Source: an uncultured Spirochaetales bacterium (GTDB lineage Bacteria; Spirochaetota; Spirochaetia; Sphaerochaetales; Sphaerochaetaceae). From it: 34,973 nucleotides of DNA. Shown piece by piece: positions 28,010 to 33,251 of the stretch (position 1 is the stretch's first letter; each line of letters starts with the position of its first letter). The notes beneath the pieces were generated by a model, which made no database searches, was not told the origin of the DNA, and saw nothing but the letters and a program-made list of their open reading frames with translations. Location of the stretch: contig CASENB010000001.1 in assembly GCA_949289305.1 (NCBI GenBank), positions 1 to 34,973 on the forward strand, read 5' to 3'. The translations under genes were made by a program, and so were the position numbers.

Positions 28010-28083
28010 GCCTCCTTAGCTCAGCTGGCCAGAGCACGTGATTTGTAATCTCGGGGTCGTTGGTTCGAATCCGACAGGGGGCT
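28010..28083 (+). tRNA. tRNA-Thr (anticodon TGT)
   Basis: A full cloverleaf can be drawn. Acceptor GCCTCCT pairs with AGGGGGC (one T-G pair), the D stem is GCTC/GAGC, the anticodon loop TTTGTAA gives TGT for Thr ACN codons, and the T arm GTTGG-TTCGAAT-CCGAC is perfect. The anticodon stem CGTGA/TCTCG has a T-T mismatch in its middle. CCA is not encoded, so it is added after transcription. Confidence 0.93.
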
Positions 28084-28122: not shown

Positions 28123-28244
28123 GCCTCAATGAATGCAAATAATATATTGGTACTTCTTATCTTTTTTATTTTATTACGAACATTTTTAATTTTTTATGTA
28201 ATTCATTAATTGAGTAATAAAATTTTTTTTGCCCAAAATTACGA

Positions 28245-28324
28245 ACATAAAAAATATATCAAAAAATATATTGACATATTTAATTTGCTGTGTTAAATTA
28301 TCATTGTACATAAAAAATATATCA
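28245..28324 (+). repeat. 17-nt direct repeat bracketing the cassette promoter (possible operators)
   Basis: ACATAAAAAATATATCA occurs identically at 28245-28261 and 28308-28324, 63 bp apart start to start. The first copy lies just upstream of the -35 and the second lies at the predicted transcript start and ribosome site. A shorter repeat, ATTACGAACAT, occurs at 28173-28183 and 28238-28248, 65 bp apart, and the second copy of that overlaps the first 17-mer. Confidence 0.7.
28271..28299 (+). promoter_or_regulatory. Promoter of the AT-rich three-gene cassette
   Basis: Consensus TTGACA (28271-28276), a 17-nt spacer, TAAATT (28294-28299). Initiation near 28306 gives a leader of about 37 bases, with AGGAG ahead of ATG 28343. 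Confidence 0.65.
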
Positions 28325-28342
28325 TCAAAAGGAGTGATTTAT

Positions 28343-28783
28343 ATGCAATATTATATAATTACTGCTGCTTGCGGACATGTTGGAAGAGGAAAATATATAA
28401 GCGTTGATTTTCCTGTTACTGCTTCTTCTGTAAAAGAGGCGACTAAGATTTGTAGAAACATACCTCGCGTAAAACACGGGCATAAGAATGCAATAATCAA
28501 AGTAAAAACTGTTTCTTATTTTGAGTATAGGGATCAAGTTTTCTCAAATAAAGAAAATCCTTTCCTAACTTCTAAGAACAAAAAAGAGTGTTTGATGGCT
28601 GGATTCTGTTATGATTGTGTTGAGGATATGGATAATCTAAAACGTTCAACAAATTGGAAGCCGCGTAATGATAAGCAATATGAATCAATGAAGCAGAGGA
28701 AACATTGTAAAAACAATATGGCTATGTACAATGATAAACTTAATAGAAAGGAGATTTCATATGAAATTGGATTCGCTGTGTGA
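28343..28783 (+). CDS. Unknown 146-aa protein, first gene of the AT-rich cassette
   Basis: ATG 28343 has AGGAG at 28330-28334 upstream; longer in-frame reading from 28229 runs through the promoter and is rejected. The first 70 residues look like a compact alpha/beta domain (YYIITAACGHVGRGKYISVDFPV, then EATKICRNIPRVKHGHKNAIIKV). The rest is charged, with Cys residues in GFCYDCVEDM and a Lys/Arg/Asn-rich C-terminus. No signal peptide or membrane helix is present. I do not recognise the family. Its stop lies 23 bases inside the HsdS-like gene, so the two are probably translated together. Base composition is much more AT-rich than the core genes. Confidence 0.7.
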   Translation: MQYYIITAACGHVGRGKYISVDFPVTASSVKEATKICRNIPRVKHGHKNAIIKVKTVSYFEYRDQVFSNKENPFLTSKNKKECLMAGFCYDCVEDMDNLKRSTNWKPRNDKQYESMKQRKHCKNNMAMYNDKLNRKEISYEIGFAV

Positions 28784-29339
28784 TGTTATTTCTGGGCAGA
28801 TTACATCTAGACTAAAAGGGAAGGAAGATGATTCTGACACTAGAAAAATAGAAATGAAAGTTCTTATTCCCAAAGCTATAAAAGATGGGCGAGTGGATCA
28901 TGAAGCATTAGTAATAGAGACATTTTCTAAAAAACCTTCTGAAAATAATATAACAAAGGAAGGCGATATAGTTTTTAAGCTGTCTTCTCCGTATGGAGCT
29001 GCTTATATCGATAAAGAAGATGAAGGCCTTCTTATTCCTTCATTTTGTTGTAGGATGACAAATATTAGAGAAATCGACCCATTATTTTTGGTTATGTATC
29101 TTAATAGTGAATCTGCAAAGTATCAGTATGTAACTGCTTGTGGCGGAGCCGTAATACCAATTCTTAAAATAAGTAGTGTGAGAAATCTTGATATTATTGA
29201 TGTCTCTAGAGAAGAGCAGAAAGATATCAGCGCTAGATATAGAAACATCATCAAACTAAAAAAACTTGTAGAATATGCCTATAATCTTGAATTGGCAAAT
29301 TTTGAGTACGCATTTGGGAGAGAAAAAAATGTTAAATAA
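28761..29339 (+). CDS. HsdS-like single target-recognition-domain protein
   Basis: The 192-aa product begins at ATG 28761 after AAAGGAG. It resembles one half of a type I restriction specificity subunit: a DNA-recognition domain with KEGDIVFKLSSPYGAAYI (the usual GDI-then-hydrophobic core of HsdS), a PSFCCRMTN strand, YLNSESAKYQY, and VIPILKISSVRNLDII, followed by a helical stretch (residues 150-185, EEQKDISARYRNIIKLKKLVEYAYNLE) like the HsdS conserved spacer helix. A full HsdS has two recognition domains and is about twice this length, so this one may act as a dimer. It overlaps the next gene by 11 bases. No HsdR gene is nearby. Confidence 0.75.
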   Translation: MKLDSLCDVISGQITSRLKGKEDDSDTRKIEMKVLIPKAIKDGRVDHEALVIETFSKKPSENNITKEGDIVFKLSSPYGAAYIDKEDEGLLIPSFCCRMTNIREIDPLFLVMYLNSESAKYQYVTACGGAVIPILKISSVRNLDIIDVSREEQKDISARYRNIIKLKKLVEYAYNLELANFEYAFGREKNVK

Positions 29340-30636
29340 AAGGACTCGTGATGAACTTCGCAGGATAGGTGCTTTATTCCCTAATGTAGTGGAAAGTGAA
29401 ACATCTCTTGAAAGTTATCTTTGCTTCATTACACTTAAGTATGTTGCAATCAAGGGCTTAGGAATGAAGGATGTATCTGAATTTTCTAGTTATAATAAAG
29501 TAGCAATGTTTTTTACCAATCCAACTGCAATTGGATATCCTGCAAAAGATATTGAATTAATTATTAAAAATCTCGAAAAAATCACAGGTGAAAACCTTAA
29601 TGTTATTCGATTTAGATTTTCAGAGCAGTCATTTGCTTTTTTTATAAACAATATTGATTTTAGTCTTATCCCTGGTTGGAATTTAGGAATGTTAAATGGA
29701 GAACAGAAGGAAATAGAATTGCATGATGTAGTAGCTGCAACGAATTATCTTTCTGTAATGTATTATTCTCGTTATTCTGCAAATAGTGCATCACTTGCCT
29801 TATATTCTCTGGCTTCTACATTGCTTAATGTTAGTTCTGATGAAGTATTTGCTGATTATGTTGCAGGTCGAGGAATTTCAACTTTTGAAATTACAAAAGG
29901 AAAAGCAAAAAAATATATACTTTATGATATAGTAAAAAAGAATAGTATCATTTTGTTTTCAATCTTATTTGATATTAAAGATTTTAAAATTAATATTAGA
30001 AGCCTAGAGTCTGAAGTTTACGAAGAGAATGTAGCTGATAAGATATTCATGGAACCTCCTTTAGGCCTCGTTGCTTTATCTCAAGAATTCTCATGCGATG
30101 ATCTCTCGACAAAAGATGCAGGAGGAATGAGTATCATTCGTGCCGTAAAGGCTTTAAGAAATAACGGAATTGCTGTAATAGCTGTTACTGGATCATATTT
30201 AACTAGTGCAAAATTTTTATCTGTTAGAGAGTTCTTAATGAAAGAAAATCTTCTTAATGCTGTAATATCATTACCTGCTAGTTGGTATAATTCAACTGTT
30301 AAGACTAATTTATTGATTTTATCTAAAACAAATAATAAAGAAGTTATATTCATTGATGCATCTAATTATAAAATTGATCTTGAAAAAGATATTTACATTA
30401 ACGAAGAAGGAGTTAATATTTCACCTCGGATTAATGAGATAATACAAGAGAAAAAGATTTCGGCAATTTCAAATATTGTTCCTTATGTTAATGTTAATCT
30501 TGATAGTTTTTCTCCTATGTTATATCTGAATCCAGAACCGCAAAATGATATATCCAAAGAAGAGATCAAGGCTCGACTAGCAACAACTTATGAGGAAATT
30601 GCACGAATCATTAAGCAATTATCAAATGGAGTATAG
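29329..30636 (+). CDS. Compact HsdM-like protein with degenerate methyltransferase motifs
   Basis: The 435-aa product starts at ATG 29329, with GGGAG upstream, inside the end of the HsdS-like gene. The fold follows type I N6-adenine methylases. A helical N-terminal region (1-150) is followed by the SAM-binding region, the catalytic region, and IIRAVKALRNNGIAVIAVTGSYL...LLNAVISLPASWYNSTVKTNLLILSK, which are the standard motif V-VIII landmarks. Motif I, normally D-P-x-C/A-G-S/T-G, reads Asp176-Tyr-Val-Ala-Gly-Arg-Gly. Motif IV, normally N-P-P-F/Y, reads Glu242-Pro-Pro-Leu. Loss of the catalytic Asn and of the aromatic residue suggests no methylation, so a DNA-binding or sensing role is more likely (inference). 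There is no restriction subunit alongside. Confidence 0.78.
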   Translation: MLNKRTRDELRRIGALFPNVVESETSLESYLCFITLKYVAIKGLGMKDVSEFSSYNKVAMFFTNPTAIGYPAKDIELIIKNLEKITGENLNVIRFRFSEQSFAFFINNIDFSLIPGWNLGMLNGEQKEIELHDVVAATNYLSVMYYSRYSANSASLALYSLASTLLNVSSDEVFADYVAGRGISTFEITKGKAKKYILYDIVKKNSIILFSILFDIKDFKINIRSLESEVYEENVADKIFMEPPLGLVALSQEFSCDDLSTKDAGGMSIIRAVKALRNNGIAVIAVTGSYLTSAKFLSVREFLMKENLLNAVISLPASWYNSTVKTNLLILSKTNNKEVIFIDASNYKIDLEKDIYINEEGVNISPRINEIIQEKKISAISNIVPYVNVNLDSFSPMLYLNPEPQNDISKEEIKARLATTYEEIARIIKQLSNGV

Positions 30637-32284: not shown

Positions 32285-32455
32285 TTACTGTGGAAGGTAA
32301 GAGGAAAGGGCGCTTAGTTTATAACCAGCAAGCTTGGTCTTAAGCTTCTCGCAGTTATACTCCTTTGCAGTGCAGTAGATGTCATGGTGATGAAGGAGAG
32401 CAAGCCCTATCCTGAGCATATGGTTGGCTACTGCCACTGCCGCCTTGCCTTGTCC
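32285..32455 (-). pseudogene. C-terminal remnant of an IS110-family-like transposase
   Basis: The minus strand, in a frame different from the neighbouring ISL3 gene, reads about 56 residues: GQGKAAVAVANHMLRIGL, then ALLHHDIYCTAKEYN, ending SALSSYLPQ before a stop at 32285-32287. The Gly-Lys-Ala plus helical AVAxANHMLRI pattern resembles the last helices of IS110/IS1111 transposases. Only this tail remains. The rest is replaced by the ISL3 fragment at a junction near 32440-32455. Confidence 0.4.
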
Positions 32456-33251
32456 TTATGCTTTCTTGCTTCATCCAGCCTGACTGTTCCAAGAACATCC
32501 TTGCCGAACTGCGCCTGCATGTGGTAGCGGTCGTAGACTATCCTGGCATGCGGCAGATTCTCACTTATCAGTGCATTGTATGAGGCATTCATGTCTATTG
32601 CCACGGCCTCGACCTCTGAAAGGTAATCCATATCTATTTCATGGAAGAAGATAGTAAAGTCTGCCTTAGTCCTTCCTTTTCCTACCCAGATAACATCCCC
32701 GGTATCGAGATCCATGATGCATGTTGTATACCTGTGCCCCTTGTGGAAGGCGAATTCATCCACTGCCAGATGCTTCGGTTTGCCAAGAAGCTTCCGCCTT
32801 CTGTCTGCAACTGCCTCGTCCATGATCTGCTGCTGTATGTGTTTTATCGTATCCCAGTGCACCCCTGTGATCTTCTGGACGGTTGAAATAGGTATGTTGA
32901 AGCGCAGGAATGAGCTTATCCATGATGCGGCACGCTCACTTATCCTCGTCTCCGGATACTTGAATGGAATCTCCTCGCAGAATGTCCTTGCACAGCTCTG
33001 ACATCTGTACCGGTGGTAGCTTATCTCAAGATCCTGTCTCGTTCCAGTATAGACCGGCATGTCCCTCAGCCTCATGCTGCAGCTGCCCAGGACATGCACA
33101 TGTCCTTTGCAGTAGGGGCACCTTTCTTCTGCTGTTCCCTTCCTGCTGCCAGATGCAGTACCAGCCGATGCCTGTCTTCTGCTATCTCTGTATTGTCGTA
33201 TTCATATGGTTGAAGTGATGGGTTATTTGCTATAATTTGTTCTAAGAGCAT
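32428..33251 (-). pseudogene. ISL3-family transposase, frameshifted near the 5' end and truncated at the 3' end
   Basis: The main open part (ATG at 33099 to 32428, 223 aa) has the ISL3 layout: the end of a zinc ribbon (CQSCARTFCEE), a helix-turn-helix (ISTVQKITGVHWDTIKHIQQ), and the first catalytic Asp in LAVDEFAFHKGHRY, then the second Asp in AVAIDMNASYNA and IVYDRYHMQAQF. The reading stops shortly after RLDEARKHKDKAR, about half a normal ISL3 protein, so the final catalytic Glu is missing. Upstream, the N-terminus (MLLEQIIANNPSLQPYEYDN, from 33251) and the zinc ribbon ERCPYCKGHVHVLG lie in different frames, so a frameshift between about 33130 and 33220 is required. Non-functional as it stands. 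Confidence 0.8.

Follow-up and report, generated by a model that had tools for sequence, protein, structure and literature searches.

The window analysed here is a stretch of 34,973 nucleotides from an uncultured Spirochaetales bacterium (GenBank assembly GCA_949289305.1, contig CASENB010000001.1). It carries a cassette of three overlapping genes, called from open reading frames (ORFs) and Shine-Dalgarno-like sequences, that encode a small protein, a half-HsdS (S′) and an HsdM-like protein (M′) (Table 1). An earlier note, made from the letters alone, described three overlapping AT-rich genes following a tRNA gene, and this description holds. Neighbouring genes overlap by 23 and 11 bp, a tRNA-Thr(TGT) is called upstream, and the trio has a GC content of 30-33% (GC at third codon positions, GC3, 18-27%) compared with 40-46% (GC3 39-46%) for five other window genes checked. 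Position 28245, the start given in that note, falls inside the first of two promoter-flanking repeats, and no gene lies there. An alternative start of M′, 18 codons earlier, gives a 453-aa version.

Table 1. Features of the three-gene cassette and of its promoter region (window coordinates)
Feature	Position	Strand	Remarks
tRNA-Thr(TGT)	28010..28083	+	landmark upstream of the cassette; membership of the cassette not implied
Promoter-flanking repeat, copy 1 (GAACATAAAAAATATATC)	28243..28260	+	just 5′ of the -35 element; related elements in L002, L054 and L056
Predicted sigma-70 promoter: TTGACA, N17, TAAATT, TG before the -10 element	28271..28299	+	between the repeats; consensus match only, 10/12
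Promoter-flanking repeat, copy 2 (GTACATAAAAAATATATC)	28306..28323	+	just 3′ of the -10 element, close to where transcription is expected to begin; spacing to copy 1, 63 bp
Small protein, 146 aa	28343..28783	+	CGHVGR...PRVKH family; no Pfam match reaches its cut-off
Half-HsdS (S′), 192 aa, one target-recognition domain	28761..29339	+	
HsdM-like pseudo-methylase (M′), 435 aa	29329..30636	+	motif I DYVAGRG, motif IV EPPL

M′ matches N6_Mtase at 38.5 bits (cut-off 20.4). A Foldseek comparison of its structural model finds type I M subunits (best E 2e-11), the closest fold being that of PacII M1M2S. The trio is beyond chance, since the four nearest M′ relatives (P0002-P0005) are every one 435 aa long, at 47-48% identity. 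The family comprises 12 separate members of 423-449 aa and 17 members fused to S′ (see below). In the comparison of motifs that the earlier note had proposed, none of these 29 proteins has an intact NPP(F/Y/W) in motif IV, and it is present in 10 of the 11 HsdMs of such loci (the 11th, in L182, has NMPF, and one of the ten, in L186, has an unusual motif I). Motif IV of the 12 separate members reads EPPL (window), DPPL (four), DPPF (two), DGPI (two), DFPL, DGPL or DGAI, the PP pair being also gone in L054, L056, P0007, P0034 and P0035. The HsdM-like protein thus named is a member of a family of predicted pseudo-methylases. Methylation had been judged unlikely from motifs I and IV; the part of this argument that concerns motif IV stands, with EPPL in the window and a change throughout the family, and the part that concerns motif I falls, as DYVAGRG still fits D-x-x-x-G-x-G. 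The case for lost catalysis therefore rests on motif IV and on its family-wide change. The G-x-G of motif I is retained in 11 of the 12 separate M′.

The description of S′ as an HsdS-like protein with a single recognition domain is borne out by its length of 192 aa, by profile matches and by the family alignment. S′ scores 18.9 bits against Methylase_S, under the cut-off of 22, and E 8e-11 against PADLOC Specificity_I. Identity between the window and its relatives L054 and L056 is 33-34%, with 32 invariant positions across four sequences.

A scan of genome contigs for the small protein yielded 85 confirmed loci, of which 80 were kept. The three-gene order of the window, which the earlier note had suggested looking for, recurs in three other genomes, the small protein being followed by S′ and M′ in 3 of the 80 loci (L002, L054 and L056), while some of the remaining loci stop at a contig edge. 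L002 comes from the genus of the window and L054 from Acholeplasmatales; M′ identity to the window is 48% in L002, 26% in L056 and 19% in L054. Behind the trio of L002 lie an intact 613-aa HsdM (DPACGSGG, NPPF), a 373-aa HsdS, an AbiJ_NTD4 protein and a 1052-aa HsdR, and behind that of L054 a 527-aa HsdM, a 382-aa HsdS and a 1052-aa HsdR. Both HsdRs are confirmed by Pfam, and M′ adjoins hsdM directly in both loci. In L056 the contig runs on for about 0.9 kb past M′, and no hsd gene is seen in this stretch. The idea of a free-standing, undescribed cassette has to give way, as in two of three relatives with known surroundings the trio opens a complete type I restriction-modification (R-M) operon. 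A nearby HsdR, which according to the earlier note would turn the locus into an ordinary or decaying type I system, is missing from the window and present in L002 and L054, where it points to R-M regulation and not to decay. Among 100 related genomes searched (that of the window included), a close M′ occurs in two (the window and G028) and the small protein in the same two, so that the distribution of the cassette is patchy; 15 further genomes of the 100 give weak M′ matches alone (E 1e-9 or worse). A GmrSD-type restriction protein is encoded directly upstream of the trio and type I operon of L054 (L054:7400-9814).

Measured against a type I R-M system, the window shows no HsdR, its HsdM-like protein lacks NPP(F/Y/W) and its HsdS-like protein has one recognition domain instead of two. 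The lack of HsdR, already remarked on for the window, extends to the whole genome (2.27 Mb, 30 contigs), in which PF04313 (HSDR_N) finds no match; positive controls worked in this search, and the result is not absolute because the genome is 86% complete. The HsdR protein of a relative used as query gives no match either, in a search made without a positive control. No second DNA N6-methylase was found in the rest of this 86% complete genome, where the only other N6_Mtase match lies in a 735-aa protein that we take to be the rRNA methylase RlmKL. A Methylase_S search gives no match in the genome, yet it also misses the half-HsdS of the window, so that other divergent half-S genes could escape it. 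HsdM, HsdS and HsdR of L002 have no trace elsewhere in the window (tblastn, best E 0.46).

Each of the four trios has a sigma-70-like promoter between the two copies of a direct repeat (GWACMTAAAAAAYATWTC-like), with copy 1 before the -35 element, copy 2 after the -10 element and spacings of 63, 63, 70 and 80 bp. In each of the four, 0 of 60 dinucleotide shuffles reach the observed repeat score. A matrix made from the two copies of the window was applied to 103 upstream regions, the window left aside, drawn from 78 small-protein loci (75 without S′/M′) and 25 fused or half-S loci. It ranks L002, L056 and L054 first, second and third (22.4, 18.7 and 11.5 bits), the next region scoring 10.5 bits with one copy only. 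Because the top three of the 103 regions are the trios and 75 regions belong to other small-protein operons, the window-type repeat, as judged by this ranking, goes with this type of S′/M′ and not with the small protein. A consensus scan of four genomes (G000, G028, G100 and G101) finds four matches with zero mismatches, all at trio promoters; when two mismatches are allowed, the number of matches equals the level of the reversed control. As the consensus was drawn from those same copies, the scan shows the absence of other strong sites and is not an independent proof. The copies of L054 differ at three positions and are missed by the consensus pattern. An exact 11-bp repeat, ATTACGAACAT, is also present in the window at 28173-28183 and 28238-28248; its second copy overlaps promoter repeat 1, and the first is possibly an additional half-site.

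When 395 genomes of the class of L054 were searched with the S′ profile, 27 had a match at 1e-8, and a second form of the module came to light: a single protein of 526-611 aa that comprises both M′ and S′. Seventeen such proteins from 16 genomes were examined, one of them from the genome of L056. The fused protein stands before type I genes in 11 of the 17 loci, where typing used reference HsdM, HsdS and HsdR proteins, some of them checked by Pfam, and assigned the others by blastp to these. Of the other six, L204 stands, as judged by eye, before housekeeping genes, and the pattern of gene lengths is alike in L205 and L208; within the stretch fetched, no hsd genes are seen at L203, L211 and L215. 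The small protein has no match at the fused loci in the stretches searched.

Repeats of other sequence are found at fused and half-S loci, several being interrupted palindromes around the promoter. For example, L143 has a TGGTTATCGATAACCA-like and L158 a ACGGATATTAATATCC-like element twice around the promoter, L166 and L168 have ATTACGTTT...AAACTTAAA twice, and L181 has TGCTTTT-N6-AAAAGCA twice. Promoter-flanking repeats scoring at least 14 are present at 11 of 28 module promoters and at 9 of 282 distinct control promoters (Fisher 4e-8); with the four trios and one near-duplicate set aside, 6 of 23 module promoters reach this score (p 3e-4). At a score of at least 13, such repeats occur at 8 of the 11 fused loci linked to R-M genes (in two of these eight, L161 and L167, the repeats are AT-rich and of low complexity) and at 0 of the five unlinked fused loci tested.

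Several features of these loci deserve mention beside the fused proteins. In L206, L207, L210, L212, L213, L214 and L216, the seven R-M-linked loci with an intervening gene, a conserved protein of about 175 aa (GPxPH, GDxSS, YPxV) is encoded between the fused pseudo-methylase and the hsd genes; the two members scanned match no Pfam family. The genes behind the fused protein of L204 resemble, by eye, those of a pseudouridine synthase, a cytidylate kinase, an S1-like protein and a Der-like protein, and L204, L205 and L208 have no paired promoter-flanking repeats. In L174-L176 and L180-L182 a half-HsdS lies directly before an HsdM with motif IV NPPF or NPPY (NMPF in L182), with HsdS-like and HsdR-sized genes nearby and promoter repeats in some (L180 and L181).

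Taken together, the reading that we consider probable, on the strength of sequence comparison, is that S′ and M′ form a methylation-dead DNA-binding complex that represses its own operon through the two promoter-flanking repeats. DNA binding by S′/M′ is inferred, and repression of the shared promoter is suggested by the positions of the repeats. The earlier note had proposed a sequence-specific DNA-binding complex, such as a repressor or a sensor of foreign DNA. The conserved pairing of a recognition domain with an inactive-looking methylase and the regulator-like repeats at the promoter favour such a complex; its target is likely to be its own (R-M) promoter rather than foreign DNA, since the trio fronts a complete type I operon in two of three relatives. 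According to a review, S and M of a type I enzyme do not bind DNA by themselves (PMC3874165), and a dead M′ would thus be kept so that the single-domain S′ can read DNA; a complex that binds and does nothing else would need just this combination of a dead M with one recognition domain. The assembly is probably a dimer, (M′S′)2, as in the ‘type 1½’ enzyme M.AhdI. With copy 2 occupied, beside the expected start site, transcription would be blocked, and copy 1 would add cooperativity. In the relatives the whole R-M operon would come under autogenous control, while the window copy, as an orphan, would regulate its own genes together with the 146-aa protein and might silence incoming R-M operons that bear the same repeats.

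A number of observations weigh against autorepression by S′/M′. Upstream repeats are not unique to S′/M′ operons, because 10 of 79 promoters stand at 0 of 60 shuffles and six of these belong to other operons (L011, L014, L022, L033, L034 and L042). The first repeat test, which took no account of promoter placement, was weak, with 3 of 28 above the 95th percentile of the controls (Fisher 0.21; Mann-Whitney 0.002), and the promoter-flanking version was devised after it; in that version 14 of 282 controls reach 13. Clear paired repeats are absent from the R-M-linked loci L142, L157 and L162. Similarity of recognition domains correlates weakly with similarity of upstream regions (rho 0.10, p 0.048), and this correlation is confounded by kinship. 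By eye, the trio repeat shows a dyad that is weak at best (ANATR-N5-YATNT), a bad fit to a symmetric dimer. In the window and in L056 no hsd genes are seen behind the trio, so that the presumed target is missing. Lastly, some members have a near-canonical motif IV (DPPF in P0003 and P0006 and, among the fused proteins, NPSY in L142 and NYPF in L143 and L153), so that loss of catalysis, as read from the motifs, is not certain for every M′.

Among the other explanations, M′ and S′ could be auxiliary subunits of a type I enzyme, M′ pairing with HsdM as PacII M1 does with M2, or S′ with HsdS, with an effect on specificity or stoichiometry, and the window copy would then be a leftover. The direct adjacency of M′ and hsdM in L002 and L054, the best fold match of M′ to PacII M1M2S and the existence of half-S genes before a canonical-motif HsdM and a full S (L174-L176) all fit this arrangement. 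We nevertheless regard it as unlikely, for PacII M1 and M2 are reported to keep NPPF and NPPY (PMC9613975) and M′ does not, the promoter repeats would be left unexplained, and the trios of the window and L056 are intact without hsd genes in view behind them. It is slightly less likely still that the 146-aa protein or a host factor reads the repeats and promoter, with S′/M′ doing other work such as sensing foreign DNA. The small gene is indeed the first behind the promoter, and the six other operons with strong upstream repeats named above are small-protein operons. However, their repeats differ in sequence, the window-type repeat tops the ranking only in S′/M′ operons, and the R-M-linked fused loci bear promoter-flanking repeats in 8 of 11 cases although no small protein is matched in the stretches searched.

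An active, unusual ‘type 1½’ amino-methyltransferase that marks its own promoter appears improbable. It would account for the G-x-G kept in motif I of 11 of 12 separate M′ and for DPPF in P0003 and P0006, and Asp in place of Asn occurs in other adenine methylases; EPPL in the window, however, has lost both Asn/Asp and the aromatic residue, and the loss of the PP pair in L054, L056, P0007, P0034 and P0035 goes further. Decay of a type I system, with the trio as leftover genes of an hsd operon, is unlikely and comes last in our estimate. It agrees with the failure to find HsdR or another DNA N6-methylase in the 86% complete genome, but the window has three intact ORFs and two intact repeats, the separate M′ (12 proteins) are about equally short and equally altered, two of them beside an intact hsdM, and the tblastn search for the hsd products of L002 showed no trace of these elsewhere in the window.

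An autorepressing S′/M′ complex can be compared with several known systems. The ‘type 1½’ enzyme M.AhdI is described as two M and two one-domain S subunits reading interrupted palindromes, as do fused M~S homodimers such as M.XmnI (PMC3874165). These gamma-methyltransferases have the same composition, either a separate M with a one-domain S, as in the window, or an M~S fusion, as in the fused loci, and their interrupted-palindrome targets have the form seen in several fused-type promoter repeats; they differ in that NPP(Y/F/W) is lost in 29 of 29 M′ and in that M′, in many loci, sits on the promoter side of a separate R-M system that is complete. In the parts of the literature consulted, HsdC of Mycoplasma gallisepticum (PMC5282649) and RptR (PMC12255303) are small helix-turn-helix (HTH)-type controllers acting on repeats of type I promoters, with promoter binding shown for both and repression for RptR. 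C proteins, HsdC and RptR share with S′/M′ the repeats in the shared promoter and, with part of the S′/M′ loci, the gene placement before a type I operon, control being here proposed from sequence. They are small HTH or HTH-like proteins, whereas here a half-HsdS paired with a pseudo-methylase would do the reading; Pfam finds no HTH family in any of the three trio proteins. Of the traits of R-M controllers, operator-like repeats at the shared promoter are present in the trio, and placement before R-M genes is seen in L002, L054 and 11 of 17 fused loci, not in the window, while the contig of L056 ends too soon. In the type II methylases Ecl18kI, SsoII and EcoRII an added repressor or HTH part is described as acting on their own R-M genes (PMC12707154). 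The common trait would be the control of R-M genes by a methylase polypeptide; in the trio, by contrast, the reading would fall to the recognition subunit itself, and an added domain is not seen. PacII M1M2S, closest in fold to M′, likewise has two different M-type subunits in one type I locus, but both are catalytic as far as described (PMC9613975), and M′ has its own S′ and no second M with NPPY in the window. M′ and S′ also show a weak profile likeness to MAD2 and MAD5 of the MADS system (PADLOC E 8e-9 and 2e-13), with scores of 13.7 and 19.0 bits that lie far under the NCBIfam cut-offs of 720 and 400. What would be new is an R-M controller built from R-M parts, within the known class of R-M controllers.

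The small protein, presented in the earlier note as part of this cassette, is not confined to it, as its family heads several unrelated types of operon. C-G-H-V-G and PRVKH are invariant in 21 aligned members, though not in every wider locus. Operons that contain class III ribonucleotide reductase genes, others that contain pairs of HTH proteins and further types likewise begin with a member of the family; in four loci it is fused behind what look, by eye, like leucine-rich repeats (LRRs). Its predicted fold (pLDDT 80) has weak matches, among them the RNA polymerase epsilon subunit and T7 Gp2, a modelled resemblance that offers a lead; a co-regulator touching RNA polymerase would be a guess. 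A recurrent gene island is seen in L011, L014, L022, L024, L033, L060 and similar loci. In L033, the only one typed by Pfam, it contains a DUF4238 protein, proteins of about 270 aa, a 73-aa protein, the CGHVGR small protein, an NrdG-like radical SAM protein, NrdD, a metallophosphatase, a nucleoside-kinase-like protein and an LRR protein bearing an N6/N4 DNA methylase domain. In all, 19 loci carry the NrdD cluster, and strong palindromic repeats occur at some promoters of such island loci. In L026, L036, L037, L038, L057, L062 and L063 the small protein is followed by two long proteins of 474-524 and 347-385 aa with an N-terminal HTH (checked by Pfam in L036 only); in L036 a nuclease-methylase fusion (HSDR_N_2 + N6_Mtase) comes after these. 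On the other side of the cassette, a carbamoyltransferase gene (OTCace domains) lies 211 bp 3′ of M′, and just past it a 223-aa ORF on the minus strand (32428-33099) resembles, by eye, part of a transposase.

Type I restriction systems need restraint on entering a new cell, and the type I controllers described so far in the sources consulted are small HTH-type proteins (HsdC, RptR). If S′/M′ binds the repeats, the recognition machinery of the restriction enzyme itself, with its methylase disabled, would have been turned into a switch. A wider proposal, which we hold as tentative, is that a class of bacterial transcription regulators has arisen from the type I methyltransferase core, in which a dead M with a single recognition domain, split or fused, would read operators without methylation and, in Firmicutes, Mollicutes and spirochaetes, stand at the head of type I R-M operons. 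In its split version it would add a CGHVGR protein contacting RNA polymerase, and orphans such as the window copy could serve as immunity switches against incoming R-M operons, silencing those that carry the same operator. If S′/M′ does bind the repeats, a natural collection would be at hand in which recognition domains go with predicted target sites, so that half-HsdS recognition could be read off directly, and some ‘N-6 DNA methylase’ and truncated ‘HsdS’ genes otherwise taken for enzymes or debris would gain a function.

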